A stretch of DNA of 64,000 nt from an uncultured Flavobacteriales bacterium (lineage in GTDB: Bacteria; Bacteroidota; Bacteroidia; Flavobacteriales_G; Salibacteraceae), in NCBI GenBank assembly GCA_937121175.1, contig CAKZKD010000034.1, positions 1-64,000 on the forward strand. Reading direction: 5' to 3'. The notes beneath the pieces were generated by a model. That model had not been told where the DNA came from and did no database searches. It was given only the letters and a program-made list of their open reading frames with translations. A program made the position numbers and the translations under genes. Below are positions 1-14,542 of the stretch, piece after piece (positions within the stretch are counted from its first letter, which is position 1; each line of letters starts with the position of its first letter).

Positions 1-306
1 GCAGGCATTTACAACATCGGTGGCATAAGTAGTCTTGTTTATGGTCAAATTCAGTGTAACTATAGAATCACAACCCGGGGCATTTACGAGGGTGTCTTTT
101 GCTGTGGAGTTGCTGCTGGTGTACGTTTTACTATTGATCCAAGTATAGCTATCGCAGGCATTTACAACATCGGTGGCATAAGTAGTCTTGTTTATGGTCA
201 AATTCAGTGTAACTATAGAATCACAACCCGCGGCATTTACGAGTGTGTCTTTTGCGGTGGAGTTACTGCTGGTGTACGTTTTACTGTTGATCCAAGTATA
301 GCTATC
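1..306. repeat. Two tandem 153-bp direct repeats within the CDS
   Basis: Bases 1-153 and 154-306 are almost identical; I count five mismatches. Each unit encodes one 51-residue CDSIVTLNLTI module. A third, diverged unit starts at 307. The array probably continues past the left edge. Confidence 0.9.
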
Positions 307-1698
307 GCAGGCTACAACTGAATCTATGGAACTGGTACTTCTTTTTATAGTAAGATGAAGCGTGACAATGGAGTCGCAACCTTCAGCATTGATTAGGCTG
401 TATTTTGAGATTGTATCATTTTTCGCGTAAGTGTTTCCATCAATCCAAGTAATGCTATCGCAAGCGACAACAGTATCTGTTGCGAAGGTGACGCACAAGG
501 AATACACACGAACATGGCCAGCACCCCTTCCGTTCCCATTGTTATTAAATGCTCCAATTGAAACGGTATTCATGTTCGGCATACTTACGGAATACCCCGA
601 TTGATCTGCAATATTTTCGCCGTCAATATCTCCTCCTTTTTTTTCCCATGAGGATCCATTCCATGTGTAAATGCGAACGTGTCCAGAAGAAGATCCATTT
701 CCGTCATTTTTTGGGACTCCAATGGCAATCGTATTGCTATCTGGCATACTTACCGAATGACCGGCTTGATCATTACTAGCTTCTCCATCGATATCTCCTC
801 CTTTTTGAATCCAATTCGAACCATTCCAACTATAAATTCGTGTATGTCCTGATAAGTATCCATTTCCACCATTCCGAATAGCACCAATGGCAATCGTATT
901 GGCGTTGGGCATATTAATTGAATGCCCTGATTGATCTCCAGCTGCTTCGCCATCAATGTCTCCGCCCTTTCTACTCCATGAGGTTCCATTCCATTTGTAG
1001 ATGCGAACGTGTCCCGATAAATTCCCGTTCCCATCGTTTTTAGGAGCACCAATAGCGACCGTATTGCTATCTGGCATACTTACAGAATGCCCCGCTTGGT
1101 CGTAATTCACGTCCCCATCAATCGAAACACCTTTTTGTGCCCATAGAGAACCCGTCCATCTATAAACCTTCACTTGCCCTTGCAGAGAGCCTCTAATAGC
1201 GCCAATGGCGATAGTGTTGCTATCCGGCATTGAAACACTACGGCCAAAACCGTTGAACCCTCCGGTAGAATCTCCTTTTATGTTTAGTCCTTTCTGACTC
1301 CATGAACTCCCATTCCACCTATAAATACGGACGTAACCTGTATCGCTACTGTAACCTTGTGGAGCACCAACTGCAACAGTATTACTATCGGGCATACTAA
1401 CGCAATACCCAAAATAGTCGTTTGTGTCTACCCCAGTAATGTCGATCCCTTTTTGCACCCATGAAGAATTGGTCCATTTATAAACACGTAATTTCCCAGA
1501 ACGATTTGCAAATGAATGTCCACCTGCTGCTCCTATTGCAACAGTCCTTGTATCTGGCATACTTACCGATTGGCCAGAATAATCAAGACTGTCTTTACCA
1601 TCTATATCACCACCTAACTGGACTTGGGCAATTAAACCCGTTGAAATGAGGGATAGGTTGATAATAATTAAAAAGATATTAAGAATGAGTTGCTTCAT
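1..1698 (-). CDS. Repetitive secreted protein, partial (3' end beyond left edge)
   Basis: The reverse strand is open from an ATG at 1698 to base 1 (566 codons, in frame, no stop), so the C-terminus lies outside the window. The N-terminus is a signal peptide ending near LIAQ. About seven repeats of roughly 55-60 residues follow, each built on GHSVSMPDSNTVAIGAP, GHVRIYKWNGSSW and KGGDIDGE, which suggests a beta-propeller or FG-GAP-like fold. From about position 500 downward come 51-residue repeats with CDSIVTLNLTI, CDSYTW and KTYTSSNS, a module typical of large T9SS-secreted Bacteroidota surface proteins. A C-terminal sorting domain is expected but not visible. The role is unknown; adhesion or a structural surface role is an inference. 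Confidence 0.85.
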   Translation of the reverse strand, partial: MKQLILNIFLIIINLSLISTGLIAQVQLGGDIDGKDSLDYSGQSVSMPDTRTVAIGAAGGHSFANRSGKLRVYKWTNSSWVQKGIDITGVDTNDYFGYCVSMPDSNTVAVGAPQGYSSDTGYVRIYRWNGSSWSQKGLNIKGDSTGGFNGFGRSVSMPDSNTIAIGAIRGSLQGQVKVYRWTGSLWAQKGVSIDGDVNYDQAGHSVSMPDSNTVAIGAPKNDGNGNLSGHVRIYKWNGTSWSRKGGDIDGEAAGDQSGHSINMPNANTIAIGAIRNGGNGYLSGHTRIYSWNGSNWIQKGGDIDGEASNDQAGHSVSMPDSNTIAIGVPKNDGNGSSSGHVRIYTWNGSSWEKKGGDIDGENIADQSGYSVSMPNMNTVSIGAFNNNGNGRGAGHVRVYSLCVTFATDTVVACDSITWIDGNTYAKNDTISKYSLINAEGCDSIVTLHLTIKRSTSSIDSVVACDSYTWINSKTYTSSNSTAKDTLVNAAGCDSIVTLNLTINKTTYATDVVNACDSYTWINSKTYTSSNSTAKDTLVNAPGCDSIVTLNLTINKTTYATDVVNAC

Positions 1699-1996
1699 TG
1701 TACGTTTCGGTTTAACATGAATATAAAAGCTAGCAAATGAATAGCATGAGTTATCTAGTTTGAATTAATTGCTATAGAAAAAATATAGATGCCTAATTCT
1801 AATGAGAAATTGAAAATTACAAAGTAATAATTTAATTGAAATAGATTAATATACTGATTATCATATCAGTAAATCTACAAATAATCTATCGACTTACCGT
1901 GGTACTCCAACAGCATCTATAATTTGTCTACATGCATAAAAGCGAATAGTTGACATAAAACCATGTGGTCAACGCAGAAATCATTTAATTCGATTT

Positions 1997-4006
1997 ATGA
2001 AAATAACTAAGTGGTTTTTCTTGGGTGCCTTAACTCTGTTCATAATTACCGTCCATGCAAATGGGAATCCTGGCTCCTTCAAAGAGCTAAATAAATTACC
2101 CTTAACTGCTGTAGATAGCATTCTAATCCAACTGAGAACTCAATCTCCTGATTCTGCTACTTTAATTTTTGATCAATGGATGCGAAGACCTGATTTTTCG
2201 GCCTCTGTTATAGCGCCCGCCATTCTTTACAACAGAGCGGTTCTTGCTAGAAAGAAGCATCAATTGAATTTTGCAGATTCTTTGGTTACTCAAATTATTT
2301 ACAAATACGGTTTGTCAGCTTCAGGATTTTACAAGGCTCAGGCGTATACTATTTTGGGAACAAGTGCCAGAATCAAAGGAAATACTAGAATGTCTGTATC
2401 CTATCTGGACAGTGCATTATCTATATACTCAAGACTAGACAAGTCTTTCTACACTGCAAACTGCTACTTAAATCTAGGTAATACTTACTTGATTCAAGGG
2501 AACTATGTTGAAAGTCTTAAAAACTTACATCTATCTCAAAACATAGCGGACAGTATGGCTAGCATAAAAGGTGGCATATTGGTTCGTACCTCAATTATTG
2601 GGGTTTACCGAAATCTAGGTTTGTTCGATCAAGCAGTTGATGTGGTGCATGAAGTTCAAGAAATGGTGACACAATTACATGGAAATGATTCACTAAAAAA
2701 CACAATGTTAGTCAATCACCACCTAGGCTTGCTGCATAAAGAGTTAAACAACTATGACAAAGCTTTAAAACATACCAAATCTGCTTTGGAAGTGGCGGGG
2801 AGATTATCGATTAAAAATCATGTAGTCGCGTATGGAAATAATCTTTCTGGGATTTATCTCAAATTGAATAAGCCAGATTCAGCGTTGTATTATTTAAATC
2901 GGTCGCAGTTAATCTTAACTGAATTGTCTTTGACCGATTTTCGTGTCGACATTAATAAAGCGGAAGCCTATCTCCAACTTAAGAACTATAAGAAGGCGAT
3001 TAAAATTATTCGAGGTAAAGAGTACTCTTTTATCCAAAAGGGCAGGTACAATGACTTTCTGAACTGGGTCAATTTAGAAGCTAAGATTAATGTAGCAATG
3101 GGACAGCCTAAAAAAGCACTTAAGATACTCCTACCCCATTATAAAGATTCATTGGCAAGTAAGTACCCAAGAACTGAAATAGAAATATTAAAAACTTTGT
3201 CGATGGCAGCAGCGCAGGATAGACAGTTTAAAAGTGCCTATCGGTTTCAGAAAAGTTATTCCGAACTTTTTGAACAACAGGAAAAAGACAATCGAAGAAA
3301 AGCCGACCTTAAATTAAATGTAGCTAGACAGTTGAAAGATTGGCAAGATGAACGGGTTCTTATTCAGCAAAAAATGAGTCAATTTGAAAATGAACTGAGT
3401 ACGAGAAAGGAAAGAAATAGACTGTACTTATACTCGGGAACAATGTTGTTTATTTTATTGAGTTTAGCAACATTTTTCTGGAATAAATCGGTTAAAAAGG
3501 ATAACGAGCTGTTACAGAGCAAGGCAATGTTAGCAGAGCAAAAGATATACAGTCTTGCTATTGAAAAAAACCAATTAAATGAAACGCTATCAACCCAAAC
3601 AAAAATTATTGCTGGAAAGAACGAAATCATTGCGGAGATTAAATCTCAAGTAGGAAAGGTCTTAGCTGAAGGGGCGAACGAAAACGAAAGATTGGTCGAA
3701 AAAATGGTAGCGGCAATTGATCAAAAAGCTAACGGCGAAAAGGATTGGGAGACCTTTTTACTCTACTTTGATAAGCTATACTCCGGATTTATATTTAATT
3801 TGAAAACGCAGTATCAGAACTTAACCACCGGAGAGATTCGATTATGCACATTGCTCATTATTAACCTTTCTACTAAGGAAATCGCTCACGTTCTAGGCGT
3901 TAGCCCTTCAAGCGCCAATTCTGCTAGGTATCGATTGCGCAAAAAATTAGGACTTAATAAAAATGATGATTTAATTCAAAAATTAAATTCCATTTGGAAA
4001 GTCTAA
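1997..4006 (+). CDS. TPR-transmembrane-HTH transcriptional regulator
   Basis: The 669-residue protein has a signal peptide (about 1-22), helical TPR-type repeats (about 75-400), a long helix (about 420-470), one membrane segment (about 476-496), a coiled coil (about 498-550) and a C-terminal LuxR-like winged/HTH domain (about 609-652; LTTGEIRLCTLL, STKEIAHVLGV, SARYRLRKKLGL). This Bacteroidota architecture puts the TPRs in the periplasm and the DNA-binding domain in the cytoplasm. It is usually read as a one-component envelope sensor, but its ligand and targets cannot be told from sequence. It is divergent from the repeat protein at 1-1698, which could be a target. A homologous architecture occurs at 24530-26200. 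Confidence 0.88.
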   Translation: MKITKWFFLGALTLFIITVHANGNPGSFKELNKLPLTAVDSILIQLRTQSPDSATLIFDQWMRRPDFSASVIAPAILYNRAVLARKKHQLNFADSLVTQIIYKYGLSASGFYKAQAYTILGTSARIKGNTRMSVSYLDSALSIYSRLDKSFYTANCYLNLGNTYLIQGNYVESLKNLHLSQNIADSMASIKGGILVRTSIIGVYRNLGLFDQAVDVVHEVQEMVTQLHGNDSLKNTMLVNHHLGLLHKELNNYDKALKHTKSALEVAGRLSIKNHVVAYGNNLSGIYLKLNKPDSALYYLNRSQLILTELSLTDFRVDINKAEAYLQLKNYKKAIKIIRGKEYSFIQKGRYNDFLNWVNLEAKINVAMGQPKKALKILLPHYKDSLASKYPRTEIEILKTLSMAAAQDRQFKSAYRFQKSYSELFEQQEKDNRRKADLKLNVARQLKDWQDERVLIQQKMSQFENELSTRKERNRLYLYSGTMLFILLSLATFFWNKSVKKDNELLQSKAMLAEQKIYSLAIEKNQLNETLSTQTKIIAGKNEIIAEIKSQVGKVLAEGANENERLVEKMVAAIDQKANGEKDWETFLLYFDKLYSGFIFNLKTQYQNLTTGEIRLCTLLIINLSTKEIAHVLGVSPSSANSARYRLRKKLGLNKNDDLIQKLNSIWKV

Positions 4007-4307
4007 ATGTTATTATAAATTGCCCTCATGAAACAATAAAAATAGTACTGATAGTACGTCATAAAGCAGTCTTATCCATACAGGAGATATTTCTCAAAAC
4101 TGTTTGCATGATCACACAACTCTACCCTTCCAGATCTTTTCGCTAATTATTTCGCTCTGGGTAATAAGAGAGATAATTTTGAATCAAAGCCGGTAGGTTG
4201 GAATAAAAACCTTTTACTATCCTCTTTGTGTTAAAGCAGAATCGACGGAACCAAAGTCTAGATTAACATAGTGCTAGTCAATTATGGGACATTCAATACC
4301 AACAAAG
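4007..4307. other. Convergent intergenic region, no gene seen
   Basis: About 300 bases between the 3' ends of the TPR-HTH gene and the MOSC gene. I find no convincing ORF, RNA gene or clear terminator hairpin. Confidence 0.5.
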
Positions 4308-4946
4308 TTACAACGTATACTTCTTACGAATGTAGCTTTTACATCCCTCGGCTAAAAACTCTTCGGCAAGTACTTTGTCCAATAAATCCTTCTCATAAGG
4401 TTTATGATAAAGCACTTTAAATACTTCAGATACTGAAATGCCCTGAGGATTGTTACTTACCAACCGAAAATCATCACCTACCCGTACCTCTCCCGATTTT
4501 AGAACACGAACGTAAATTCCGGGATAAGGCTGATTGATGAAGTCTTTTAAAACAGTTTGGTCATTAAACCGAACGCCCAGTTTAAAACAAGGTTGTCTTG
4601 GTTGCGAAACCTGAATAGTTGCAGTGCCAACTTCGTAAACGTCTCCAATATTTACGTTGGTTTCATCGCAATTCTTGACCGTTAAGTTCTCGCCAAACAT
4701 GCCGTAATTCCAGTTTAAATCAGGATACCTTTCCTTCCAAAATGGATAATGATCCGCCGAGAACAGGTAGCAGGCTTTGTCTATTCCGCCGTGATACTTT
4801 CTGTCAACAACGACATCTCCTAGAACATCGGTTTTTTCAAGAATTAGAGGTTGCTTAACAGGTTCCTTAAAAATTCCGGTTTGAACTTCCTTACCCTGCC
4901 AAACAATTGTTTTAGCCGCTGAAATATTGGTGGATATGACTCTCAT
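4308..4946 (-). CDS. MOSC domain protein (YiiM-like)
   Basis: From the ATG at 4946 the protein has 212 residues. It carries the MOSC hallmarks YHGGIDKACY (about 51-60), GENLTV (about 85-90), GDVYEVG and the conserved cysteine in QPRQPCFKLG (Cys120). MOSC proteins act on molybdenum-cofactor-bound sulfur or use Mo-bis-MGD/Moco to reduce N-hydroxylated compounds; YiiM is the closest type by length and motif. An upstream in-frame ATG at 4976 exists, but 4946 is preferred because its ATG overlaps the MarR stop codon by one base (TAATG), a translational coupling signature. It is the last gene of the leftward redox cluster. Confidence 0.9.
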   Translation of the reverse strand: MRVISTNISAAKTIVWQGKEVQTGIFKEPVKQPLILEKTDVLGDVVVDRKYHGGIDKACYLFSADHYPFWKERYPDLNWNYGMFGENLTVKNCDETNVNIGDVYEVGTATIQVSQPRQPCFKLGVRFNDQTVLKDFINQPYPGIYVRVLKSGEVRVGDDFRLVSNNPQGISVSEVFKVLYHKPYEKDLLDKVLAEEFLAEGCKSYIRKKYTL

Positions 4947-5566
4947 TATTTCACTACTTCCAAATGCTCGGGGCAATCCATTCTTAGCGCGTTTTTAGTA
5001 AGCTCAGTTTTCATCAGTTTACAATAATGGGCTGCGTTTTTATCGCCTTCGTAATTGGTGCAGGTAAAACACATGCGCTGAACATCAATAATTCCGTTGC
5101 GCTGCAGTTTGTAGATCAACTCAGTTAAGCTATCAAAAAGCACCTCTTTTTTAGATGCGTCCAAATCCAACAAGGGCGCTTTAAGTTCGTGCGTATAATG
5201 CTCCACTTTTGAAGCCAATTTTTCACCTTCTGAAGTTAGGGATAAGGTAAAACTTCTGGTATCTGAGGTATCCACCACTTTGTTCAGGTATCCCTTGCTT
5301 AGCAGGGTTTTTACTGAATCGCTGATAGTGGCTTTGGTAATATTAAAATCCCTGGCCATATACCCCACTTTGCACTTCTCGGGCGTATGGTATTTAATGA
5401 ATACAAGGATTTGTAATTGGATAGGGCTGATTTTGTTTTCCTGCGCCTGACTCCATTGCAACACGCGATAAACCTCCGATATTTTTTCGAAGGCCACAAT
5501 AATTTTACTATCAAGGTTGTGGTGCTGCTTTTCCGTATCAAATACCGATTCCTTTTTTAGAGCCAT
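4946..5566 (-). CDS. MarR-family regulator with C-terminal four-cysteine tail
   Basis: The 206-residue protein has a winged-helix MarR core (about 20-155): helix-turn-helix at KVGYMARDFNITKATISDSVKTL and wing at DTSDTRSFTLSLTSEG. Beyond the core is a cysteine tail with C166, C169, C182 and C198 (CFTC, HYC, DCPEH), suited to bind zinc or an iron-sulfur cluster, or to act as a thiol switch. Its start overlaps the thioredoxin-fold gene by 10 bp and its stop overlaps the MOSC start by one base. The 21-bp palindrome at 7000-7020 at the head of the cluster is its probable operator. That the tail is a redox or metal sensor is inference. Confidence 0.88.
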   Translation of the reverse strand: MALKKESVFDTEKQHHNLDSKIIVAFEKISEVYRVLQWSQAQENKISPIQLQILVFIKYHTPEKCKVGYMARDFNITKATISDSVKTLLSKGYLNKVVDTSDTRSFTLSLTSEGEKLASKVEHYTHELKAPLLDLDASKKEVLFDSLTELIYKLQRNGIIDVQRMCFTCTNYEGDKNAAHYCKLMKTELTKNALRMDCPEHLEVVK

Positions 5567-6168
5567 TTGTTTAGTATTTCGTTTATTTCTTGTGGTGTTT
5601 TATGACCGAACCAGTGTTCCAAAACGCTGTATTCTTCATTAAACACAACAAATGTAGGCGTTCCTCTAAATTGGTTTAAGGTAAATGTACTAGGGATGTT
5701 GGATTGCTGTTCTAAATACTTTTCAATGTTTTCGTGCAGTTGTTTTTGCTCAAAATCGGGCCAAATATCGTAGTTCGGATTTAGTCTGCAAATGCTTTCA
5801 ATGTTTTCATCCGATATAAAATCTGCTTTGTTTTGCATGCGATCCATTGCTATAGGAAAATCAATGTTTTGAGGATATACTTGATAACCTTGCTCGTTCA
5901 ATGCTTTTTTGGTCTCACCGACCAGCTTTTTATCGTTCAATAACAGCGTGGTATTTTCACGGGTGTTGAATTCAAAATCTTCAAACGCAGTGGAAAGCCC
6001 TAAGAAGTTGATTGCGCCGTTATGCTTATGGTACAACTCATTAACAACCGGAAAGCCATAAAAAAAGCACCCGGGACAATTGACCTGAAAGGCAAACAAA
6101 AAGTTGAGTTTTCCTACCTTAAAATCACCTTGTAATAGTGCGTCGTATTCGAGTTTTAGTCTATTCAT
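5557..6168 (-). CDS. Thioredoxin-fold protein with CPGC motif
   Basis: The 203-residue protein has a thioredoxin-type active site CPGC at residues 31-34 and a cis-proline region RGTPTFVVF near residue 168. Between them is a helical insertion like that of DsbA-type folds. No signal peptide is seen, so a cytoplasmic thiol oxidoreductase is most likely; its substrate is unknown. It overlaps the downstream MarR gene by 10 bp, implying co-expression, and a CSVC thioredoxin-like protein is encoded upstream in the same cluster. Confidence 0.82.
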   Translation of the reverse strand: MNRLKLEYDALLQGDFKVGKLNFLFAFQVNCPGCFFYGFPVVNELYHKHNGAINFLGLSTAFEDFEFNTRENTTLLLNDKKLVGETKKALNEQGYQVYPQNIDFPIAMDRMQNKADFISDENIESICRLNPNYDIWPDFEQKQLHENIEKYLEQQSNIPSTFTLNQFRGTPTFVVFNEEYSVLEHWFGHKTPQEINEILNKWL

Positions 6169-6204
6169 ATATTTCAGAATATCTTTATTTCGTAAGCAAA
6201 AAAC

Positions 6205-6246
6205 TGTCAGTTTGAGTGAAACCCGTGAGGGTTTTGTATCGAAAAC
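6205..6246. repeat. Short intergenic palindromic repeat (Flavobacteria-type)
   Basis: The segment reads GTCAGTTTGAGTG, then AAACCC-GTGA-GGGTTT, then GTATCGAAAAC. The core can form a hairpin. The flanks match, from memory, a dispersed intergenic element of flavobacterial genomes (GTTCGAGTG ... GTATCGAGAAC). It lies between two leftward genes of the redox cluster and may act as a terminator or mRNA-stability hairpin. Only one copy was noticed in this window. Confidence 0.5.
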
Positions 6247-6274
6247 AAAGTATTTTGCTTATTCATTATTCACT

Positions 6275-6637
6275 CTAATTGCAATTCTCCATTTCAATAA
6301 TGTAATAACCTTTTTTCTCAATATCTGCTTCCCAGGCGGGTTTCATCGTTTCCACATGACACCTCCTGCACTCTTTGGCTGAGAGCAATTGTCCCTCCTG
6401 CCCTTTTTCCGCCAAATATTGCTTGCCGTATTCATGAATGGTGGCTTCATCTACGATAGTTATTGGAGCCAAAATATCGAAATGCATAATGACTCCATCT
6501 TTCTTTTTTACATAAGTATCCCAAACCACTACTTTCATTTTTTCTTGTTTTTGCTGAGTCCAGTTGGATGTGCCAAGCACCACCAAGGAAACCGTTATCA
6601 TTCCGACTACTAAAACCCAATATTTTTTTAATTGCAT
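6275..6637 (-). CDS. DUF2024 family protein, possibly with N-terminal membrane anchor
   Basis: The C-terminal 87 residues match DUF2024: MKVVVWDTYVKKKDGVIMHF, YGKQYLAEKGQEGQ, KECRRCHVE. DUF2024 proteins are small and of unknown function. In this gene the family core is preceded in frame by a hydrophobic segment (KKYWVLVVGMITVSLVVLGT). An ATG at 6637, preceded by an AAAAGAAG ribosome-binding-like sequence, gives 120 residues with that anchor; an ATG at 6538 gives the standard 87-residue protein with a weak upstream site. I favour 6637 but am not certain. The CRRC cysteines fit the thiol theme of the cluster. Confidence 0.75.
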   Translation of the reverse strand: MQLKKYWVLVVGMITVSLVVLGTSNWTQQKQEKMKVVVWDTYVKKKDGVIMHFDILAPITIVDEATIHEYGKQYLAEKGQEGQLLSAKECRRCHVETMKPAWEADIEKKGYYIIEMENCN

Positions 6638-6704
6638 GACTTCTTTTAAAACATAAACTTCTGGTACGCTCAAGTACCAGAAGTTTAGTAAATGATTTGA
6701 ATAA

Positions 6705-6938
6705 TTACCCTTTTACGTCTGCCATGCTTGCACCGTAATTTATGTGCAATACGTTTCCGTTTGGTGTAACTAATGCCGGAACTGATTTAAGTCCCGCATT
6801 TTCTGCCTCTGCTATTCTGTTTCGGTCTTCACCTATGTTTACAACTTCAACGGTTGAAGAATCCATTAAATTTAAAATGTCTTGTTCTGCACTCACACAT
6901 ACTGAACATCCTGCGTGATAAAAAACTGATTTACTCAT
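6705..6938 (-). CDS. Small thioredoxin/glutaredoxin-like protein
   Basis: This 77-residue protein has a redox motif CSVC (residues 11-14) right after the first strand and a cis-proline motif SVPALV (Pro54), the minimal glutaredoxin/thioredoxin-like layout. It is cytoplasmic, with no signal peptide. It is the first gene of the leftward redox cluster, directly behind a promoter whose -7 box overlaps a 21-bp palindrome. Its partner may be the larger CPGC protein encoded downstream, but that is inference. Confidence 0.8.
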   Translation of the reverse strand: MSKSVFYHAGCSVCVSAEQDILNLMDSSTVEVVNIGEDRNRIAEAENAGLKSVPALVTPNGNVLHINYGASMADVKG

Positions 6939-6994
6939 CTTGTTTAAAATTTTGAGATTATTAAAAAATTTGATTGAATCGCGAATTCATAACG

Positions 6995-7020
6995 CAAATA
7001 TAGTAAGGAATCCTTACTAT
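6995..7020 (-). promoter_or_regulatory. Promoter -7 box overlapped by 21-bp perfect palindrome (likely MarR operator)
   Basis: Bases 7000-7020 are a perfect inverted repeat of half-site ATAGTAAGGA around a single central base. On the reverse strand TATATTTG (6995-7002) matches the Bacteroidota -7 consensus TAnnTTTG and overlaps the palindrome. Repressor binding there would block RNA polymerase at the redox cluster. The MarR protein encoded at 4946-5566 is the obvious candidate. No clear -33 TTG was found at the ideal distance. Confidence 0.72.
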
Positions 7021-7105
7021 GTGAATTTTGATAGAAATTTATCGAAACAATTTTTGATTTAATAGTATTGAAAGTTGAGCGAACCCCCTCCTCTGGTTAA
7101 GTAAA

Positions 7106-7867
7106 TTACATTATATCAACATATTGAAAACTATAATTTAATTTAGTTTTCAACTTGTTACTTGATACAATTTTCCAATTATTTGCTGAGTTTTCATCAA
7201 ATTTGGGAGCGGATTGACCCTCTTTTTTAGCAACTTCGGTATAAAATTCCCTCCTAGCTGGATGCGAATCGGCGCAGGCATTAAACGTTTCTCCCCAGCA
7301 ATTTTGACGAATGATTTCTTCAATTATTCCAATACAATCGTCTCTATGAACAAGGTTTACAAACCCTATAGGGTTTTGCATGGGTTTGGTCTTGGGGATA
7401 AAATTTACAGGTTTTCTATCGTAGCCAAACAAACCAGCAAAACGGATTACGGTTGTTTCAAAACGGGTCTTATTTCTAAACAGCTCTTCTATCCTTGAAA
7501 GTGGACAATCCTTAACCGGTGTGGCTTCGGTAACTTCTTCGTTACTGTTTTCATAAACCGAAGTTGAGCTAATGTAGATAACCTTTTTGATGTTCGATTT
7601 TTCAATTTGTTCAATCAAATTAGCAAAACCAGCAACTTCTTTTTCGGGTACGGCTATGATTAGAATCTCCGAATCACAGAAAGCTAAATAGTCATTCTGT
7701 GCCGAACCCAAATTGATTAGAAATGGGTTGATTCCTTTCTTTTCAAGCTTTTGCACCCTCTCTTGTGAACGAACTGAACCTTTTACCTGAAATCCTTTAT
7801 AGATTAAGGATTCCGCTAACGGAAATCCCAACCAACCACATCCCAATATGCTAATTTTAATCCCCAC
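7106..7867 (-). CDS. NAD(P)-dependent epimerase/SDR-type protein (YeeZ-like)
   Basis: An extended-SDR-like protein with an N-terminal Rossmann motif ILGCGWLGFPLA (GxGxxG), a strand ending in IIAVPEKEV, the IYISSTSVYE segment containing the Ser/Tyr region, and VNLVHRDDCIGII, typical of nucleoside-diphosphate-sugar epimerase-like proteins such as YeeZ. Substrate unknown. Start choice is open: homologues would begin MKISILG, and here the Met position is ATT (codon 7859-7861) preceded by AAGG at good spacing. GTG at 7867 and TTG at 7930 are the only other in-frame choices, and neither has a good ribosome-binding site. It stands alone, leftward. Confidence 0.78.
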   Translation of the reverse strand: MGIKISILGCGWLGFPLAESLIYKGFQVKGSVRSQERVQKLEKKGINPFLINLGSAQNDYLAFCDSEILIIAVPEKEVAGFANLIEQIEKSNIKKVIYISSTSVYENSNEEVTEATPVKDCPLSRIEELFRNKTRFETTVIRFAGLFGYDRKPVNFIPKTKPMQNPIGFVNLVHRDDCIGIIEEIIRQNCWGETFNACADSHPARREFYTEVAKKEGQSAPKFDENSANNWKIVSSNKLKTKLNYSFQYVDIM

Positions 7868-7930
7868 CTTAGTTTTAGTGTATTGTCTCGCAAGTATAGT
7901 ATGGAAACCTAATAAATATTGTGGGTTCAA

Positions 7931-8301
7931 TTATCTATTTTCTAAAGAGCTGATTTTTTATTAATAGTTCTGATTTTAAGAGTAAAGTTTGTCATACCAT
8001 AACTCTACAAAGGTCAGTGCTTCATTGGAGCTCTGAGCCAACCTAAGCCGAGGGTTCGGACCGCTCTGGTTATTTAGTGTTCTATCCAGTAAAGACAACG
8101 TGAGAGAACTGCCAAGCCCTCGCCCTCGCGCCAGTATTTTTGAACTAAATATGAGCTAATCGGTTGTCACTTCACTACTTTCGAAGTATTCGAATTAAGG
8201 AAGGTCAATGGACATGGCCTATCCGCTCCACGTACTAGTGTGGGCAAGCACGCCAGTATGGTGCTAGGCCTTTAAGAGCATATAAAATCTTGAAAATTCA
8301 A
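7931..8301. other. Intergenic region, relatively GC-rich, possible structured RNA
   Basis: No ORF is supported here. Part of it (about 8030-8140 and 8210-8275) looks richer in G+C than neighbouring spacers. Near 8216-8270 inverted segments GGCCTA/TAGGCC enclose CCAC/GTGG and GCAC/GTGC, which could form a three-way-junction RNA. No tRNA, tmRNA, SRP or RNase P signature was recognised. Confidence 0.4.
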
Positions 8302-9567
8302 TTAATGTTTGACGACTCTTAATCTCTGTTCATGAGATTCCGACCTAAATCGAACGAGATAAATTGAGTTTGCTAATGAATTGGTTGTGATTTCTTCTTG
8401 TTGTTCGCCTTCCATTATTGTAAAATTCATGTTTTGAACTTCTTTTCCATTCAAATCTAAGAGTTGGATTTGACCACTTGCATGAACATGAGATTCAATT
8501 TTAAAAAACAATTGATTACTCGAAAAGTACACCTGTTTTATCTCAAATCCGGAATTAGTGTTTTTGATTTTATCGCAATCTAGGAGCGCCATATCATAAG
8601 TTTCGCTTTTTCCGTTAAAGTCAAATTGCTTTAATCTGTAATACACGTTACCAGAAGAAAAGTAATCGTCAGTCACTTGATACGCTTTCACCGAATTGGA
8701 ATAATACGAACTGTTTACTCTGGCAATCTGAACGGGTTCTTTATCGAGTTCAATGCGTTCGACAATGAAATGACTGCTATTGATTTCTGAAGCCGTTTCC
8801 CAACTTATAATTACCTCTGATTCAGCGCATTCCACTTCAAAGTTCAATAATTCGACGGGTAACGGCGCGCCCCCGTCCACTAGAATCCAGTTGGCGTGGA
8901 ATGAATTGGACGGAATAGAAATTCCGCTGACGGTATTTGAGGACGTATTTACAGTACCAAACGTTAAGCCTTCCCAACTATCATTGCTGGCGTTGTATCT
9001 TTGGGCAATCATAGTACCTTCTGTAATAGAGTTGCCCCCGCCTATTTCATTTTCATCGTATCCAAAACTAGCTGTACCCGCTGGGTTGGTTCCTGTAAAA
9101 CTTGGTGTGACACACCAAAATCGGTCAATTGCTCCCATGCTACCGTCCATTCCGTCCGAACTGCGCATCATGTTGGTTACGACTGAAGGATAGGGAACAT
9201 TAGAATTGTTAGTTTGCCAGGTTGAAAAACGAATGCTTCCTGTTGCATCTGCCGCAGCGGTATCAATGGAAAGGGTAAATGGGATTTCTACTCCCGTTCC
9301 ACCTTGAATAATGGGTTTGGTTGAAAAAGGAACAGTATAGGTACCCGTTGAATTTCCTACGTTCCAAATAACGTCGTTTTGCTCGTTTTCAGAAACCAGT
9401 TTCCCTCCAGTACCCAATGTTATTATTCCAGAAGTATCGCTGTTATTGATAAGCAATTTTGCTGAATCGTTCATAACTACATATCCGCCGTCGTTGAACA
9501 CCAGCTGGGCGCTACTTGGCACTCCGTACAGGAATAATACTATCAGAATTTCAATTGTTTTTTTCAT
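8302..9567 (-). CDS. T9SS-secreted surface protein with C-terminal sorting domain
   Basis: The 421-residue protein has a signal peptide ending in SSAQ, a beta-rich domain (about 25-230), and a PLPVELLNFEVEC segment (about 236-248) leading into an Ig/FN3-like region (VIISWETASEINSSHFIVER) common before T9SS tails. The last about 80 residues form a type A sorting domain (QIQLLDLNGKEV, SIYLVRF). It overlaps the upstream S74 repeat protein by 4 bp (ATGA), so the two are translationally coupled. It is probably exported by T9SS and displayed or released together with that partner. No enzymatic motif is seen. Confidence 0.85.
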   Translation of the reverse strand: MKKTIEILIVLFLYGVPSSAQLVFNDGGYVVMNDSAKLLINNSDTSGIITLGTGGKLVSENEQNDVIWNVGNSTGTYTVPFSTKPIIQGGTGVEIPFTLSIDTAAADATGSIRFSTWQTNNSNVPYPSVVTNMMRSSDGMDGSMGAIDRFWCVTPSFTGTNPAGTASFGYDENEIGGGNSITEGTMIAQRYNASNDSWEGLTFGTVNTSSNTVSGISIPSNSFHANWILVDGGAPLPVELLNFEVECAESEVIISWETASEINSSHFIVERIELDKEPVQIARVNSSYYSNSVKAYQVTDDYFSSGNVYYRLKQFDFNGKSETYDMALLDCDKIKNTNSGFEIKQVYFSSNQLFFKIESHVHASGQIQLLDLNGKEVQNMNFTIMEGEQQEEITTNSLANSIYLVRFRSESHEQRLRVVKH

Positions 9568-12428
9568 AATCCTGTTGTTGAATTTGTTACTTGAATTTGA
9601 GCTTCACTTTTAAGGGCATTTAATTGCCGTTTTACCTCTAACGTTTCTTGCGTGTTCTTTTCTAGTTTATCGGTTAATTCCTGAATTGCCTTTACCAAAA
9701 CAGGCACCAGCTCTGCGTAATTCACTCCTTTGGTTTGCAAGCTATCTTCACCAGTAAGCACAACCTCTGGAATTACTTTTTCTAGCTCTTGGGCTATAAA
9801 GCCTATTTTCTTGGTTGCTGTGGAGTCGTTTTTCCATTCGTAACGAACCGGTCGCAAAGACATAACCTCGGATAAACCGTATTCTACATTTTTGATTTTC
9901 TTTTTAAATCGAACGTCAGAGGTTTGAATGGTGCCGTTGACAGCATAAACCACAGTCCAGCGATTGGAAACGGCTCCACACGTATAAGTATTATCTGTAA
10001 TAGGTTTTAGGTTTCCATTTACCGAAAAGTGCCCATAAATATCCACTTGTTTTGCTGAGAAATTGCCTTTTATTAATGGAGTTGTTGTGTTGGAATTGTC
10101 AATGTACAAGGTATTGCTACCCGTTTCAGCTGAACCGGCTTCATGACCTATAAATATATTTCCATTTCCGGTGGTAGAAGCACCAGCATTAAACCCTAAT
10201 GCTGTATTCCTGTCACCTGTTAAAGTAGAACTTAAAGAAGAAACGCCAAATGCACAATTCTTTTCACCGTTTATGCTTTTATTGAGTGCATCTTGCCCAA
10301 CGGCAGAATTATTAAACCCCGTTGTATTACTCTCAAGAGCATTTGCTCCAAGTGATGTGTTTTGGTTTCCCGTCGTATTGGCGCTTAGCGCTTTGGTTCC
10401 AACCGAGACATTATATCCCCCTGTTGTATTATTTTCCAAGGTTTCGGAGCCTACAGCGACGTTATGTGTACCCGAAGTATTACTGTAATGAGAACGATAT
10501 CCTATGGCTGTAGAATTGGATGCACCTGTGCAAGAAGTCATGGAGTTTGTTCCTATAGAGGTGTTTCTATTTCCAACTTCGTTATTATACAAGGCGTAAG
10601 TTCCTTGAGCTACGTTTTCAATTCCTGTAGTGTTTTTGTAAAGTGCGTATCCACCAACTGCTACATTGTTGTGACCCACAGTATTGAAGTGCAATGCATA
10701 CGCACCGTCCGAAACGTTTCTATAACCAGTTGTATTTGTGTAAAGTGCCCTGTAGCCAGAACCTGTATTGCTATGCCCAGTAGAAGTATTAAACAAAGAA
10801 GCATAACCTATCGACGTATTGTAATAACCTGTTTTATTACTAATAAGTGCTTCACCCCCAATTGCAACATTACTATGACCGGTTGTATTTCCATATAAGG
10901 ACCGATATCCTGCTGCAGTATTAGAATGTCCTGTAGAATTAAGATACATAGATTCAAATCCATTAGCCACGTTATTATTTCCGGTTGTGTTCGTATAAAA
11001 TGCTTTATATCCCGAAGCAGAGTTGCTTCCACCTGTAGTATTCCCGTACATTGAATAAGCTCCGTTAGCTACGTTATTTTCTCCGGTGCTGTTTGAGTAC
11101 ATTGACCTATATCCAAAAGCGGAGTTGTTTAACCCAGTCGTGTTTTGATACAAAGAATATGAACCAACCGCGGCATTTTGATTCCCTGAAGTGTTAAAAA
11201 ACATAGCATAAGAACCAGATACAGCATTGTCATCGCCTCCAGTATTCGAATACAAGGAATACGCGCCATTCGCCGCATTTCTAAACCCATTTGTGTTCGA
11301 AAACAAGGATTGGTAACCCAAGGCAGAGTTTCTATGTCCAGAGGTATTTGCAGAAAGGGCACTGTTTCCAATTGCAGAATTATTGTATCCTGAAGTGTTT
11401 TTGTTTAATGTATAACTACCCACAGCAACATTATTAGAACCAGTTGTGTTCGATAATAAAGATGAATAACCAATTGCAACTAAATCAGAAACTGTTTGTG
11501 TGTTTGATAGCGCTAATCCACCCATTGCCACATTTCTATTTCCTGTGGTTAAATTTTGTAATGCCCCATCACCAAAAGCATTATTAGAGCTGCCAGTAGT
11601 GTTAGAGTACAGAGCAGAATCGCCTACTGCCACAGAACCTGAGGCGGAAGTATTGGAATATAAAGCGTGGTTACCAATAGCTACAGAATTATTACCCGTA
11701 GTATTTTTCGAGAGTGCATTATACCCTGCAGCTACATTATAGTCGCCAGTTGTGTTTTTTTGAAGCGCTTGTGAACCTAGAGCTGTGTTTCTAAACCCAG
11801 TAGTGTTGTCATTTAATGCCACTGAACCTACTGCGGTATTGCGATACCCTGTAGTATTTGACGATAAAGACTGGCTCCCTACAGCCATGTTAAATGTACC
11901 TGTAGTAGTTACCTTTCCGGATTGATAGCCTACAAAAACGTTTTCATTATCACTCAAATCATCGCTTTCGCCGGCTTCTTCTCCTAAAAAGATTGATTTT
12001 CCTGTGTTTAACATTTCTAACCTGCCGTTGGCTGTAAGGCGCACGTAAACCGTGTTATTTGCCCTGAAATCCAAGTCCACATTATCTGAGGTTCCGATAA
12101 AGTTTGTTCCGGAAGCAGTTCCTGAATTGCCATCGAGTTTCCAACCTCCAGAAGTCATTTCTGACCATGCACTCCCCGACCAAACCCAAAACGAGTTGGT
12201 GGTTTCGTCGTACAACAGCATTCCTTCTTCCGAAGCTCCCAGTGTCATAGCTGTGCGTTGTGTGGTAGTTAAACGAGGCAGCAAAACACCCTTGTCGTTA
12301 GTGCTGACATCAACATCTAAAATTGCTTTGGTATTTGGAGTTGAACCCGTATCGTTTATGCCAATGTTTTGAGCAAACATTTGAGTTGAACCAAATGCAA
12401 GAATGACTGCTAATAATTTATATTTCAT
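9564..12428 (-). CDS. Long repeat fibre-like protein with C-terminal S74 chaperone domain
   Basis: The 954-residue protein has a signal peptide (1-20), a conserved head (21-170), then 34 uninterrupted repeats of exactly 17 residues (about 174-751; consensus NTTGxxNxAxGxxALxx), a beta-strand linker, and a C-terminal peptidase S74/intramolecular chaperone domain (TSDVRFKKKI, SLRPVRYEWK, IGFIAQELEKVIPEV) ending in a coiled coil. S74 domains trimerise beta-helical fibres and cut themselves off at the Ser of TSDxR. The repeat resembles YadA-head-like collagen-free adhesin repeats. A trimeric surface fibre is inferred. A shorter paralogue lies just upstream at 12473. Confidence 0.88.
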   Translation of the reverse strand: MKYKLLAVILAFGSTQMFAQNIGINDTGSTPNTKAILDVDVSTNDKGVLLPRLTTTQRTAMTLGASEEGMLLYDETTNSFWVWSGSAWSEMTSGGWKLDGNSGTASGTNFIGTSDNVDLDFRANNTVYVRLTANGRLEMLNTGKSIFLGEEAGESDDLSDNENVFVGYQSGKVTTTGTFNMAVGSQSLSSNTTGYRNTAVGSVALNDNTTGFRNTALGSQALQKNTTGDYNVAAGYNALSKNTTGNNSVAIGNHALYSNTSASGSVAVGDSALYSNTTGSSNNAFGDGALQNLTTGNRNVAMGGLALSNTQTVSDLVAIGYSSLLSNTTGSNNVAVGSYTLNKNTSGYNNSAIGNSALSANTSGHRNSALGYQSLFSNTNGFRNAANGAYSLYSNTGGDDNAVSGSYAMFFNTSGNQNAAVGSYSLYQNTTGLNNSAFGYRSMYSNSTGENNVANGAYSMYGNTTGGSNSASGYKAFYTNTTGNNNVANGFESMYLNSTGHSNTAAGYRSLYGNTTGHSNVAIGGEALISNKTGYYNTSIGYASLFNTSTGHSNTGSGYRALYTNTTGYRNVSDGAYALHFNTVGHNNVAVGGYALYKNTTGIENVAQGTYALYNNEVGNRNTSIGTNSMTSCTGASNSTAIGYRSHYSNTSGTHNVAVGSETLENNTTGGYNVSVGTKALSANTTGNQNTSLGANALESNTTGFNNSAVGQDALNKSINGEKNCAFGVSSLSSTLTGDRNTALGFNAGASTTGNGNIFIGHEAGSAETGSNTLYIDNSNTTTPLIKGNFSAKQVDIYGHFSVNGNLKPITDNTYTCGAVSNRWTVVYAVNGTIQTSDVRFKKKIKNVEYGLSEVMSLRPVRYEWKNDSTATKKIGFIAQELEKVIPEVVLTGEDSLQTKGVNYAELVPVLVKAIQELTDKLEKNTQETLEVKRQLNALKSEAQIQVTNSTTGL
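10176..11909. repeat. Array of 34 in-frame 51-bp repeats
   Basis: The coding repeat region translates on the reverse strand into 34 consecutive 17-residue units with no change of length. Conserved positions are the NTTG turn and the central xAxG step. DNA identity between units is modest, so selection for protein period rather than recent expansion is likely. Confidence 0.9.
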
Positions 12429-12472
12429 AACTCTATCGTTTTTAATTTTTGAATGACTGCGTAAGAATTCAA

Positions 12473-14542
12473 TTAGAGTTTGACTTCATCCGTTCGGAAT
12501 TGCAATCTTTCAACTTGTTCTTGCAATCCTTCAATTTCACTTTTGAATTTCAAGTTCTCCTTTTCTAATGTATTTGTTTTGGAAGATGTTGCCTCTAACT
12601 CGCCCTTTAACTCTTGAACTGCCTTAACTAAAACGGAAACGAGTTCGGCGTAATTCACTCCTTTGGTTTGTAGGCTATCGTCCCCAGTGTGAACAACTTC
12701 AGGAATTACTTTTTCAAGTTCTTGGGCTATAAAGCCTATTTTTCGGGAAGCTGTAGAATCGTTTTTCCAATCATAACTAACTGGACGTAAAGACATAACA
12801 TCTAATAATCCATACTGAAGATTCTTGATATTCTTCTTAAATCGAATATCAGAGGTTTGAACTACTCCGAACCTTGAATACAAAACACGCCATCGCTTAG
12901 ATGAACTTCCCAAATTTCCTGTTTCATCAGTTAACGGCATCAAATCATCGCGCACTAATAAATCACCATGAATAAAAACAGAGTCCAAGTCGAAATCTCC
13001 TTTAATTAAAGGTGTTGTAGTGTTCGAATTGTCAATATAAAGGTTGTTTGAACCTGTTTCGTGTAATCCTGCTGAGTGCCCAAGGAAGACATTTCCGCTT
13101 CCTCTACATCGATACCCTGCATAATAACCAAAAGCAACATTTTTTTCTCCAGAGGTGTTTTTATTCATTGAAAAATACCCACAAGCAACATTTCTATCAC
13201 CGGTAGATAAATCTTCCAACACCTTATAACCGATTGCCACATTTTTAGCACCCGATGTCTGATTCATTAAAGTCTCAAAACCGATTGCAACATTGCTACT
13301 AGTGGTACTATTTCTCAAAGCGCTGGCGCCAAGAGCAACATTGTAACTTCCTACGATATTGCTCAGTAATGCATGTGAGCCAACAGCCAAATTCCCCTTA
13401 CCAGTGGTGTTATTTTTTAATCCAAAAGGACTTATTGCAACATTATCATAGCCATAAGAATTAGAAAATAAAGCAGAATCCCCGATAGCTATTAAACCGG
13501 AAGAAGTAGTAGCAGAAAATAGAGCGTGGTTGCCAATGGCAACTAAATTATCGCCAGTAGTATTCGAAGAAAGAGCCTTATATCCGAATGCCAAATTGTT
13601 ATTCCCAACTGTATTGGATTTTAAACTTTCTTTTCCTAATGCAGTATTGTAATATCCAGTTGTATTGCTTTGTAATGCTAATGAACCGATAGCCACGTTG
13701 TTAGAACCACTAGTGTTGGCGAAAAGAGCAGAGTCACCAACAGCCAAAGAACTTGACATTGTACTAGTAGAAAATAGCGCATGATTTCCAATAGCAACTG
13801 AATTATTTCCTTCTGTATTCGAGGCCAATGCATTATACCCAGCAGCAATATTGTAGGAACCTGTTGTGTTTGCTTTTAACGATTGAGCGCCTAAAGCAGT
13901 ATTTCTAAAGCCATTAAGATTGGCATTTAACGCATCGGAACCAACAGCGGTGTTTCGATACCCCGATGTATTCGATAGCATAGCCTGACTTCCCATAGCC
14001 AAGTTCAAAGTTCCTGTTGTAGTTGCACGGCCTGTTCTGTATCCTATGAATACATTTTGATTATTGGTTAAATCATCATTTTCACCCGCACTTTCTCCTA
14101 CAAATACGGAGTTGCCAGTATTAACTGTTTCCAGCCTGCCATTAGCAGTAAGGCGAACATAAACCGTGTTATTTGCCCTAAAATCCAAGTCCACATTATC
14201 TGAAGTACCAATAAAGTTTGTACCTGAAGAAGTTCCTGAATTGCCATCAAGTTTCCAACCTCCAGAGGTCATTTCTGACCAAGCACTACCCGACCAAACC
14301 CAAAAAGAGTTGGTAGTTTCGTCGTACAACAACATTCCTTCTTCTGAAGCTCCTAGTGTCATTGCAGTGCGTTGCGTGGTAGTTAAACGAGGCAGTAAAA
14401 CACCTTTGTCGTTTGTACTAACATCTACATCCAATATTGCCTTCGCGTTAGGCGTTGAACCCGTGTCGTTTATGCCAATGTTTTGTCCAATTACTTGAAT
14501 TGAAGTCAGAATCAGAATTGAAAAAAATACGTGTCGTTTCAT
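12473..14542 (-). CDS. Shorter paralogue of the S74 repeat fibre-like protein
   Basis: The 689-residue protein has the same plan as the neighbour at 9564: signal peptide, head region nearly identical from about residue 20 to 138, 18 repeats of the 17-residue type (about 174-478, one of them 16 residues), and an S74 domain (TSDIRFKKNI, SLRPVSYDWK, IGFIAQELEKVIPEV) with a C-terminal coiled coil. The heads are almost identical while the repeats differ, indicating tandem duplication with length divergence or gene conversion. It lies 44 bp upstream of the longer paralogue and 25 bp downstream of a TPR gene, all leftward. A heterotypic fibre is possible but unproven. Confidence 0.88.
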   Translation of the reverse strand: MKRHVFFSILILTSIQVIGQNIGINDTGSTPNAKAILDVDVSTNDKGVLLPRLTTTQRTAMTLGASEEGMLLYDETTNSFWVWSGSAWSEMTSGGWKLDGNSGTSSGTNFIGTSDNVDLDFRANNTVYVRLTANGRLETVNTGNSVFVGESAGENDDLTNNQNVFIGYRTGRATTTGTLNLAMGSQAMLSNTSGYRNTAVGSDALNANLNGFRNTALGAQSLKANTTGSYNIAAGYNALASNTEGNNSVAIGNHALFSTSTMSSSLAVGDSALFANTSGSNNVAIGSLALQSNTTGYYNTALGKESLKSNTVGNNNLAFGYKALSSNTTGDNLVAIGNHALFSATTSSGLIAIGDSALFSNSYGYDNVAISPFGLKNNTTGKGNLAVGSHALLSNIVGSYNVALGASALRNSTTSSNVAIGFETLMNQTSGAKNVAIGYKVLEDLSTGDRNVACGYFSMNKNTSGEKNVAFGYYAGYRCRGSGNVFLGHSAGLHETGSNNLYIDNSNTTTPLIKGDFDLDSVFIHGDLLVRDDLMPLTDETGNLGSSSKRWRVLYSRFGVVQTSDIRFKKNIKNLQYGLLDVMSLRPVSYDWKNDSTASRKIGFIAQELEKVIPEVVHTGDDSLQTKGVNYAELVSVLVKAVQELKGELEATSSKTNTLEKENLKFKSEIEGLQEQVERLQFRTDEVKL

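Follow-up and report, generated by a model that had tools for sequence, protein, structure and literature searches.

We analysed a stretch of 64,000 nucleotides (the window; positions 1 to 64,000 of the forward strand of contig CAKZKD010000034.1, assembly GCA_937121175.1) from an uncultured Flavobacteriales bacterium of the Salibacteraceae, and focused on a five-gene cluster at positions 4308-7020 that encodes a MarR-family regulator with a four-cysteine (Cys4) tail. A check of open reading frames (ORFs) placed all five genes on the minus strand, in agreement with an initial annotation of this DNA. Read along that strand, they encode a 77-residue thioredoxin-like protein, here called GRX, with the sequence FYHAGCSVC (6705..6938; closest solved chain PDB 2k8s, E 9.3e-25); an 87-residue DUF2024 protein with a CRRCH motif (6275..6538; PF09630 E 3.4e-31, 107.4 bits against a cut-off of 27; solved relative PDB 2hfq); a 203-residue DsbA/TlpA-like protein of thioredoxin fold with the motif CPGC (5557..6168; closest solved chains 3eyt, E 1.9e-06, and 3lor); the MarR regulator (4946..5566; MarR_2 E 3.8e-07); and a YiiM-like MOSC protein of 212 residues with Cys120 in QPRQPC (4308..4946; MOSC E 7.4e-34, YiiM_3-alpha E 3.4e-05; PDB 5yhh E 7.2e-35). 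The products of the first three genes carry the CxxC motifs CSVC, CRRC and CPGC.

The same annotation described the genes as tightly packed, which is apt for the last three only: the MarR gene shares 10 nt with the CPGC gene and 1 nt (TAATG) with the start of MOSC, but GRX and DUF2024 are separated by 166 bp (67 bp with the ATG at 6637 as the DUF2024 start) and DUF2024 and CPGC by 106 bp, with a terminator-like hairpin of 14 pairs followed by TGTTTTAAAA in the first of these gaps (6654..6687, minus strand). Given this hairpin, GRX may be produced mainly by itself, the MarR genes being reached by read-through. Use of the upstream ATG would give a 120-residue form of DUF2024 with a hydrophobic N-terminus (6275-6637, minus strand), and a signal-like extension is also present on the DUF2024 proteins of some relatives (loci L081, L089 and L095); from these extensions, the protein may be exported in some species. 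No Rfam family matched positions 1-14000 of the window at the gathering threshold.

The tail of the MarR protein has exactly the spacing first reported for it, C166-x2-C169-x12-C182-x15-C198. When the window protein was aligned with 32 relatives from the same order and phylum (28-50% identity), all four cysteines were invariant in 33 of 33 sequences. The tail is thus no product of chance, and the first of the two conditions said to refute the initial proposal, tail cysteines that vary among relatives, does not hold. They were likewise invariant in 78 of 78 sequences of a second alignment; the relatives in that set had been fetched by two peptide patterns, one of which included the first two tail cysteines, and the 33-sequence alignment is therefore the fairer test of conservation. 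The MarR proteins gathered numbered 129 (16 plasmid-borne, two of them duplicates). Each carried the permissive motif C-x2-C-x9-22-C-x11-24-C within its last 90 residues, and the spacing between the third and fourth cysteines was 15 in 127. The rest of the protein is that of a usual MarR regulator: both Pfam cut-offs were passed (MarR_2 30.6 bits, cut-off 27; MarR 29.3 bits, cut-off 24.6), although none of the listed NCBIfam models reached its cut-off. The AlphaFold model (mean pLDDT 81.6) has a confident MarR core and a small, less certain beta module in the tail, with predicted strands at residues 172-174, 180-182 and 187-189. A structure search with this model returned ordinary MarR proteins over residues 10-161 (3vod, Z 13.6, root-mean-square deviation 3.0 over 134 residues), and so scarcely covers the tail.

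Upstream of GRX lies a candidate operator, the perfect 19-bp palindrome TAGTAAGGATTCCTTACTA (7001..7019, minus strand; 21 bp with a flanking pair, 7000-7020). Its right arm is overlapped by TATATTTG (6995..7002, minus strand), a match to TAnnTTTG, which we take to be the Bacteroidota -7 promoter element. This is the sole site in the window with three or fewer mismatches to the pattern TAGTWAGGANTCCTWACTA, against 0.11 expected, and many relatives have the palindrome ahead of the first gene. At up to two mismatches, a site was present in 98 of 112 MarR loci and the reversed pattern in none. The nearest downstream gene within 300 nt, assessed for 111 sites, was GRX for 80, protoglobin for seven, the MarR gene itself for five, an unnamed protein of about 245 residues for five, DUF2024 for two and cytochrome P460 for one; seven sites preceded another or unlabelled gene and four had no gene within that distance. 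The register between the two elements is also kept. Among 90 sites before GRX, protoglobin or P460, 88 could be evaluated (two lay too close to a sequence end), and TAnnTTTG began at operator position 17 in 72 of them. A start anywhere in positions 10-24 was seen in 73 of the 88, compared with 18 of 1760 random stretches. A protein bound to the candidate operator would cover the promoter, which points to repression.

In an even sample of 395 genomes from the phylum, 28 contained a MarR protein of this kind (E 1e-12 or better); the MarR scan and the operator scan, identical in size and labels, are taken here as one draw. At one mismatch or fewer, the operator was found in 16 of the 28 carriers and in 0 of 367 non-carriers (Fisher 2.5e-21), and 12 carriers had none at this stringency. 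The reversed pattern occurred in nine of the 395 genomes, two carriers and seven non-carriers. By number alone, then, the sites do not greatly exceed chance; what exceeds it is where they lie. In 48 genomes reached through named MarR loci, a site was present in 41 and the reversed pattern in one. One of these genomes has a second site (G436:C101). Taken together, the conservation of the operator, its overlap with the promoter and its limitation to MarR carriers make it most likely, on sequence grounds, that the MarR protein is a repressor that regulates itself and governs a small, local regulon.

GRX was found in 16 of these 395 genomes, and 12 of the 16 are MarR carriers. The GRX loci of the four non-carriers lack the operator (best matches with 4-7 mismatches), and two of them have, by sequence match, a DUF2024-type gene beside GRX, one also with a truncated globin. 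The grouping of all three genes at locus L289 (genome G341), in a genome in which neither tail-MarR nor operator was detected, indicates that the link between GRX, DUF2024 and globin is seemingly independent of the regulator.

The genome from which the window derives has two exact sites. Each precedes a GRX gene, one in the window operon and the other in a second operon (G000:C28:170644-172250; L019:7645-9251). The latter consists of the operator, a GRX (72% identical), a tail-MarR (43%) and a different MOSC protein of 181 residues, with two weak operator copies (3 mismatches) between GRX and MarR. Allowing three mismatches gave nine operator sites and four reversed-pattern sites. A wide regulon in this genome was considered and found unsupported, as exact sites stand at the two MarR operons only and those at C2:378188, C5:40473 and C39:2279 fall within ORFs; further sites are at C5:43240 and C6:55873.

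To describe the company that the regulator keeps within the phylum, genes up to five positions from MarR were labelled by BLAST (E 1e-4) at 111 loci. GRX was present at 85, DUF2024 at 51, the 245-residue protein at 34, protoglobin at 10, truncated globin at eight and P460 at five. In support of the initial annotation, thiol proteins recur with this MarR, and the cluster, with its conserved operator, is a real regulatory unit. At a few loci, the iron-sulfur repair protein RIC is also nearby; one member tested scored 250.8 bits against TIGR03652 (cut-off 204.7). In 74 MarR-carrying genomes there were nine protoglobin genes in eight genomes; seven of the genes had an operator at up to two mismatches, one is the second of a tandem, and one has a site with 7 mismatches. 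The same genomes held five P460 genes, and the two close homologues (77-100%) bear the operator. In one relative (L052:5868-6500), DUF2024 is fused in frame to a bacterial-like globin just below the Pfam cut-off, directly before MarR. The 245-residue protein (for example L077:3931-4668 and relatives) has a signal-like N-terminal segment; it had no match in Pfam or NCBIfam and none in the PDB at E <=0.001, and its structure model was poor (pLDDT 61.6). At L060:5456-6181 its gene is split over two frames, and in the relative L062 it occupies one.

Operators were also found away from the MarR locus. The reversed pattern at up to two mismatches gave 17 sites in 26 genomes, so that a lone site of this quality means little and its place is what counts. 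Eight unlinked sites at this threshold were opened in other genomes, and two precede a partner gene. In genome G115, a 1-mismatch site lies 35 nt upstream of a cytochrome P460 gene (PF16694) whose contig is not that of MarR. In genome G016, the closest orthologue of the window MOSC (63% identical), about 156 kb from MarR, has a 2-mismatch site some 20-30 nt upstream; none of 200 shuffles of that upstream stretch reached a 2-mismatch site.

Relatives of the tail-MarR occur in plasmid records of Thermus, Deinococcus, Paraburkholderia, rhizobia, sphingomonads and Nostoc, among others. From overlapping lists of 33, 80 and 61 matching records, 16 plasmid loci were opened for taxonomic spread, and their partners were sought by BLAST at 1e-3 with queries that included Novosphingobium proteins and the Thermus oshimai P460, themselves from the 16 loci. 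By this measure, at least one partner protein was present in 15 of the 16 (the 245-residue protein in seven, TlpA in six, MOSC in five, GRX in three and DUF2024 in two), and none was seen at the Paraburkholderia sabiae locus. On Deinococcus and alphaproteobacterial plasmids the 245-residue protein occurs at 41-44% identity. Novosphingobium plasmid p3 has, in a row, MarR, a thioredoxin 56% identical to the window GRX, a TlpA protein with CPGC, a 2OG-Fe dioxygenase and a MOSC protein (39% identity over 149 residues), which by sequence is nearly the gene set of the window in another phylum. The CPGC protein of the window is itself locally similar to the TlpA proteins beside the tail-MarRs of Defluviimonas (E 6e-08) and Novosphingobium (E 1.7e-04). 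P460 stands directly before MarR in three Thermus plasmids, and a Hymenobacter locus combines the 245-residue protein, HTHP, protoglobin, DUF2024 and MarR, with MOSC convergent. The annotation around the Defluviimonas copy includes genes for NnrS and a nitronate monooxygenase. Other copies have thiol peroxidase (Nostoc), peroxidase-related enzymes (Rhizobium, Deinococcus), catalase (Hymenobacter, Rhizobium) or MsrA (Thermus) annotated nearby. On the T. oshimai plasmid, a protoglobin gene (NC_019387.1:110253-110852; L295) is located among cobalamin genes, some 73 kb away from the P460-MarR pair.

These observations can be joined in a model in three parts. A MarR dimer would bind TAGTWAGGANTCCTWACTA over the -7 element in front of the first gene and so silence its own operon and, in some species, an unlinked gene; this we regard as very probable. 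The C-terminal Cys4 module would serve as the sensor, holding zinc or, more likely, an iron-sulfur cluster, and attack on it would release the protein from DNA, a role that we favour slightly on balance. The attacking agent may be reactive nitrogen (nitric oxide (NO), HNO or hydroxylamine) or a species of closely similar chemistry, which we put forward tentatively. The set released would serve detoxification and repair: GRX and the CPGC protein as thioredoxin-fold reductases, DUF2024 and, here, MOSC as a reductase for N-hydroxylated compounds, with protoglobin, truncated globin or cytochrome P460 added or substituted in other species. We give the full reading, in which repressor, Cys4 sensor, reactive-nitrogen signal and detoxification and repair set all hold, a probability of about 0.42.

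Several lines point to reactive nitrogen. NO is a ligand of cytochromes P460 and c'-beta, and Thermus has a known c'-beta (excerpts of PMC11928373). ArnR of Corynebacterium, as described in passages of PMC12343034, offers a precedent: it is a winged helix-turn-helix repressor of hmp with a C-terminal iron-sulfur site, and NO abolishes its DNA binding. The name given by NCBIfam to YiiM, 6-hydroxyaminopurine reductase, and the NnrS and nitronate monooxygenase neighbours point the same way. The haem proteins (protoglobin, truncated globin, P460 and HTHP), the most informative partners outside the window, suggest NO, hydroxylamine or similar species at least as much as electrophiles. A broader proposal can be drawn from the same material, namely a previously undescribed class of MarR repressors with an iron-sulfur Cys4 module sensing NO, HNO or hydroxylamine, spread over at least four phyla and at times plasmid-borne, with interchangeable cargo (protoglobin, P460/c'-beta, truncated globin, thioredoxin-fold reductases, a molybdenum-cofactor MOSC reductase acting on N-hydroxylated damage, DUF2024 and the 245-residue protein). 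As a whole we hold it to be unlikely.

A number of results weigh against the full reading. Any of the three labelled haem proteins was near MarR at only 23 of the 111 loci, and no labelled haem protein was seen in either MarR operon of the window's own genome. No NO reductase or flavohaemoglobin was among the MarR neighbours inspected, and no denitrification gene (nar, nir, nor) is annotated in 192 of the 272 kb (1-141.8 and 221.8-271.7 kb) of the T. oshimai plasmid that carries the P460-MarR pair. Three of the five P460 genes in MarR carriers, distant ones (32-52%), lack the operator. Six of the eight unlinked sites precede no partner, five being inside ORFs (three in G277, one each in G212 and G382) and one having no clear gene (G115 C4). 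The tail has no convincing Pfam match, and its comparison with a profile of ten HiPIP sequences (PF01355) gave a probability of 0.26% and E 0.15, with two of 55 shuffled controls equally high. The MOSC protein is a loose member: in 15 of 17 places in the 74 MarR-carrying genomes it had neither operator nor MarR linkage. Its link to the regulator goes beyond mere proximity, given the operator of the unlinked orthologue and the five plasmid loci with MOSC beside MarR, but MOSC was rejected as a core member, being in the operon or operator-bearing in just two of the 17.

A HiPIP origin of the tail had been suggested by eye and is not claimed after the profile comparison. In that alignment, three of the four cysteine columns were clearly aligned and the fourth cysteine stood beside a gap; a Pfam scan of four tails gave no HIPIP match.

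The leading alternative, in line with the initial annotation, is a thiol switch that senses oxidants or electrophiles (HOCl, peroxides, quinones or methylglyoxal), in which the tail cysteines, with or without zinc, would be oxidised or alkylated and the thioredoxin-fold products would carry out repair. The prevalence of GRX near MarR (85 of 111 loci) and of TlpA-like proteins at plasmid loci (6 of 16) argues for it, and the thiol peroxidase, peroxidase-related enzymes, catalase and MsrA annotated near some plasmid copies point to oxidants. By itself, however, such a switch leaves unexplained why the operator stands on protoglobin and P460 genes, or why these replace GRX as first gene, and we consider it somewhat unlikely. 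Still less probable is that the tail is a structural zinc site and the MarR core binds a small ligand (an aromatic compound, haem or a porphyrin) whose chemistry the enzymes serve. The core is indeed typical (best VIA-align matches MarR, ST1710 and MepR) and the prediction for the tail is a small beta module, but no single ligand-degrading enzyme was seen to recur, the recurring partners being redox and haem proteins. An ordinary local autoregulator with neighbours as cargo without shared purpose, consistent with exact sites at only two operons in the window's genome, is already disfavoured and highly improbable, since partner genes recur over four phyla and unlinked operators precede a P460 gene and a MOSC gene.

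Elsewhere in the window, the gene at 1997-4006 (plus strand) converges on the MOSC gene; it encodes a TPR protein whose C-terminus has a weak match of LuxR-like (GerE) type. A Por-secretion-tail protein (8302-9567) adjoins a 954-residue protein (9564-12428, minus strand) with many TG-N repeats and a C-terminal Peptidase_S74 (chaperone of endosialidase) domain.

NsrR, HcpR and NorR are regulators of reactive-nitrogen stress. If the signal is reactive nitrogen, the tail-MarR would be a further regulator beside them in Bacteroidota, Thermus and alphaproteobacteria, and protoglobin, P460-type cytochromes outside nitrifiers, DUF2024, YiiM-type MOSC and the 245-residue family would gain a physiological setting. 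If the iron-sulfur MarR class is true, several orphan families would receive a function at once. Enough is now known of the regulator, its likely DNA site and its variable cargo to permit direct testing.

MarR regulators as a kind are known. Searches of an open-access library, judged by titles, beginnings of abstracts and some text passages, gave no description of a regulator with this tail, operator and regulon, and excerpts of PMC9478400, PMC9136411 and PMC9268430 contain nothing on it. A Thermus factor called NorR is termed a MarR-family factor of denitrification clusters in passages of PMC9270275, and is an NO-responsive factor in passages of PMC7694296, where 'MarR' is absent from the main text. 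The T. oshimai tail-MarR has 185 residues and lies beside P460; judged by the descriptions and by gene context over the 192 of 272 kb of plasmid covered, the two are probably different proteins. Were they the same, the NO signal would have direct support.

With MarR, MepR, OhrR and MexR, the window protein shares the winged-helix fold and an operon under a palindrome, and differs in the extra Cys4 tail of about 40 residues past the MarR domain. The window MOSC shares with YiiM the MOSC and YiiM_3-alpha domains and the cysteine in QPRQPC, but at 118.2 bits against the YiiM equivalog NF008577 (cut-off 294) it is a relative and not an equivalog. NsrR and NsrRTh of Thermus are iron-sulfur regulators of NO-related genes, but NsrRTh is a 141-residue Rrf2 protein, according to passages of PMC5748679, whereas the window protein has a MarR domain. 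A further comparison is with ArnR, the NO-responsive [4Fe-4S] repressor of hmp and narK: in the passages of PMC12343034 it has a winged helix-turn-helix, a dimerisation helix, a C-terminal cysteine site and a haem-protein target, all in common with the system described here, but three conserved cysteines and a distribution almost confined to Actinobacteria; the likeness is one of description. Conserved cysteines mark iron-sulfur regulators of the ArnR/NsrR kind, and in the tail all four are invariant in every one of the 33 aligned proteins.

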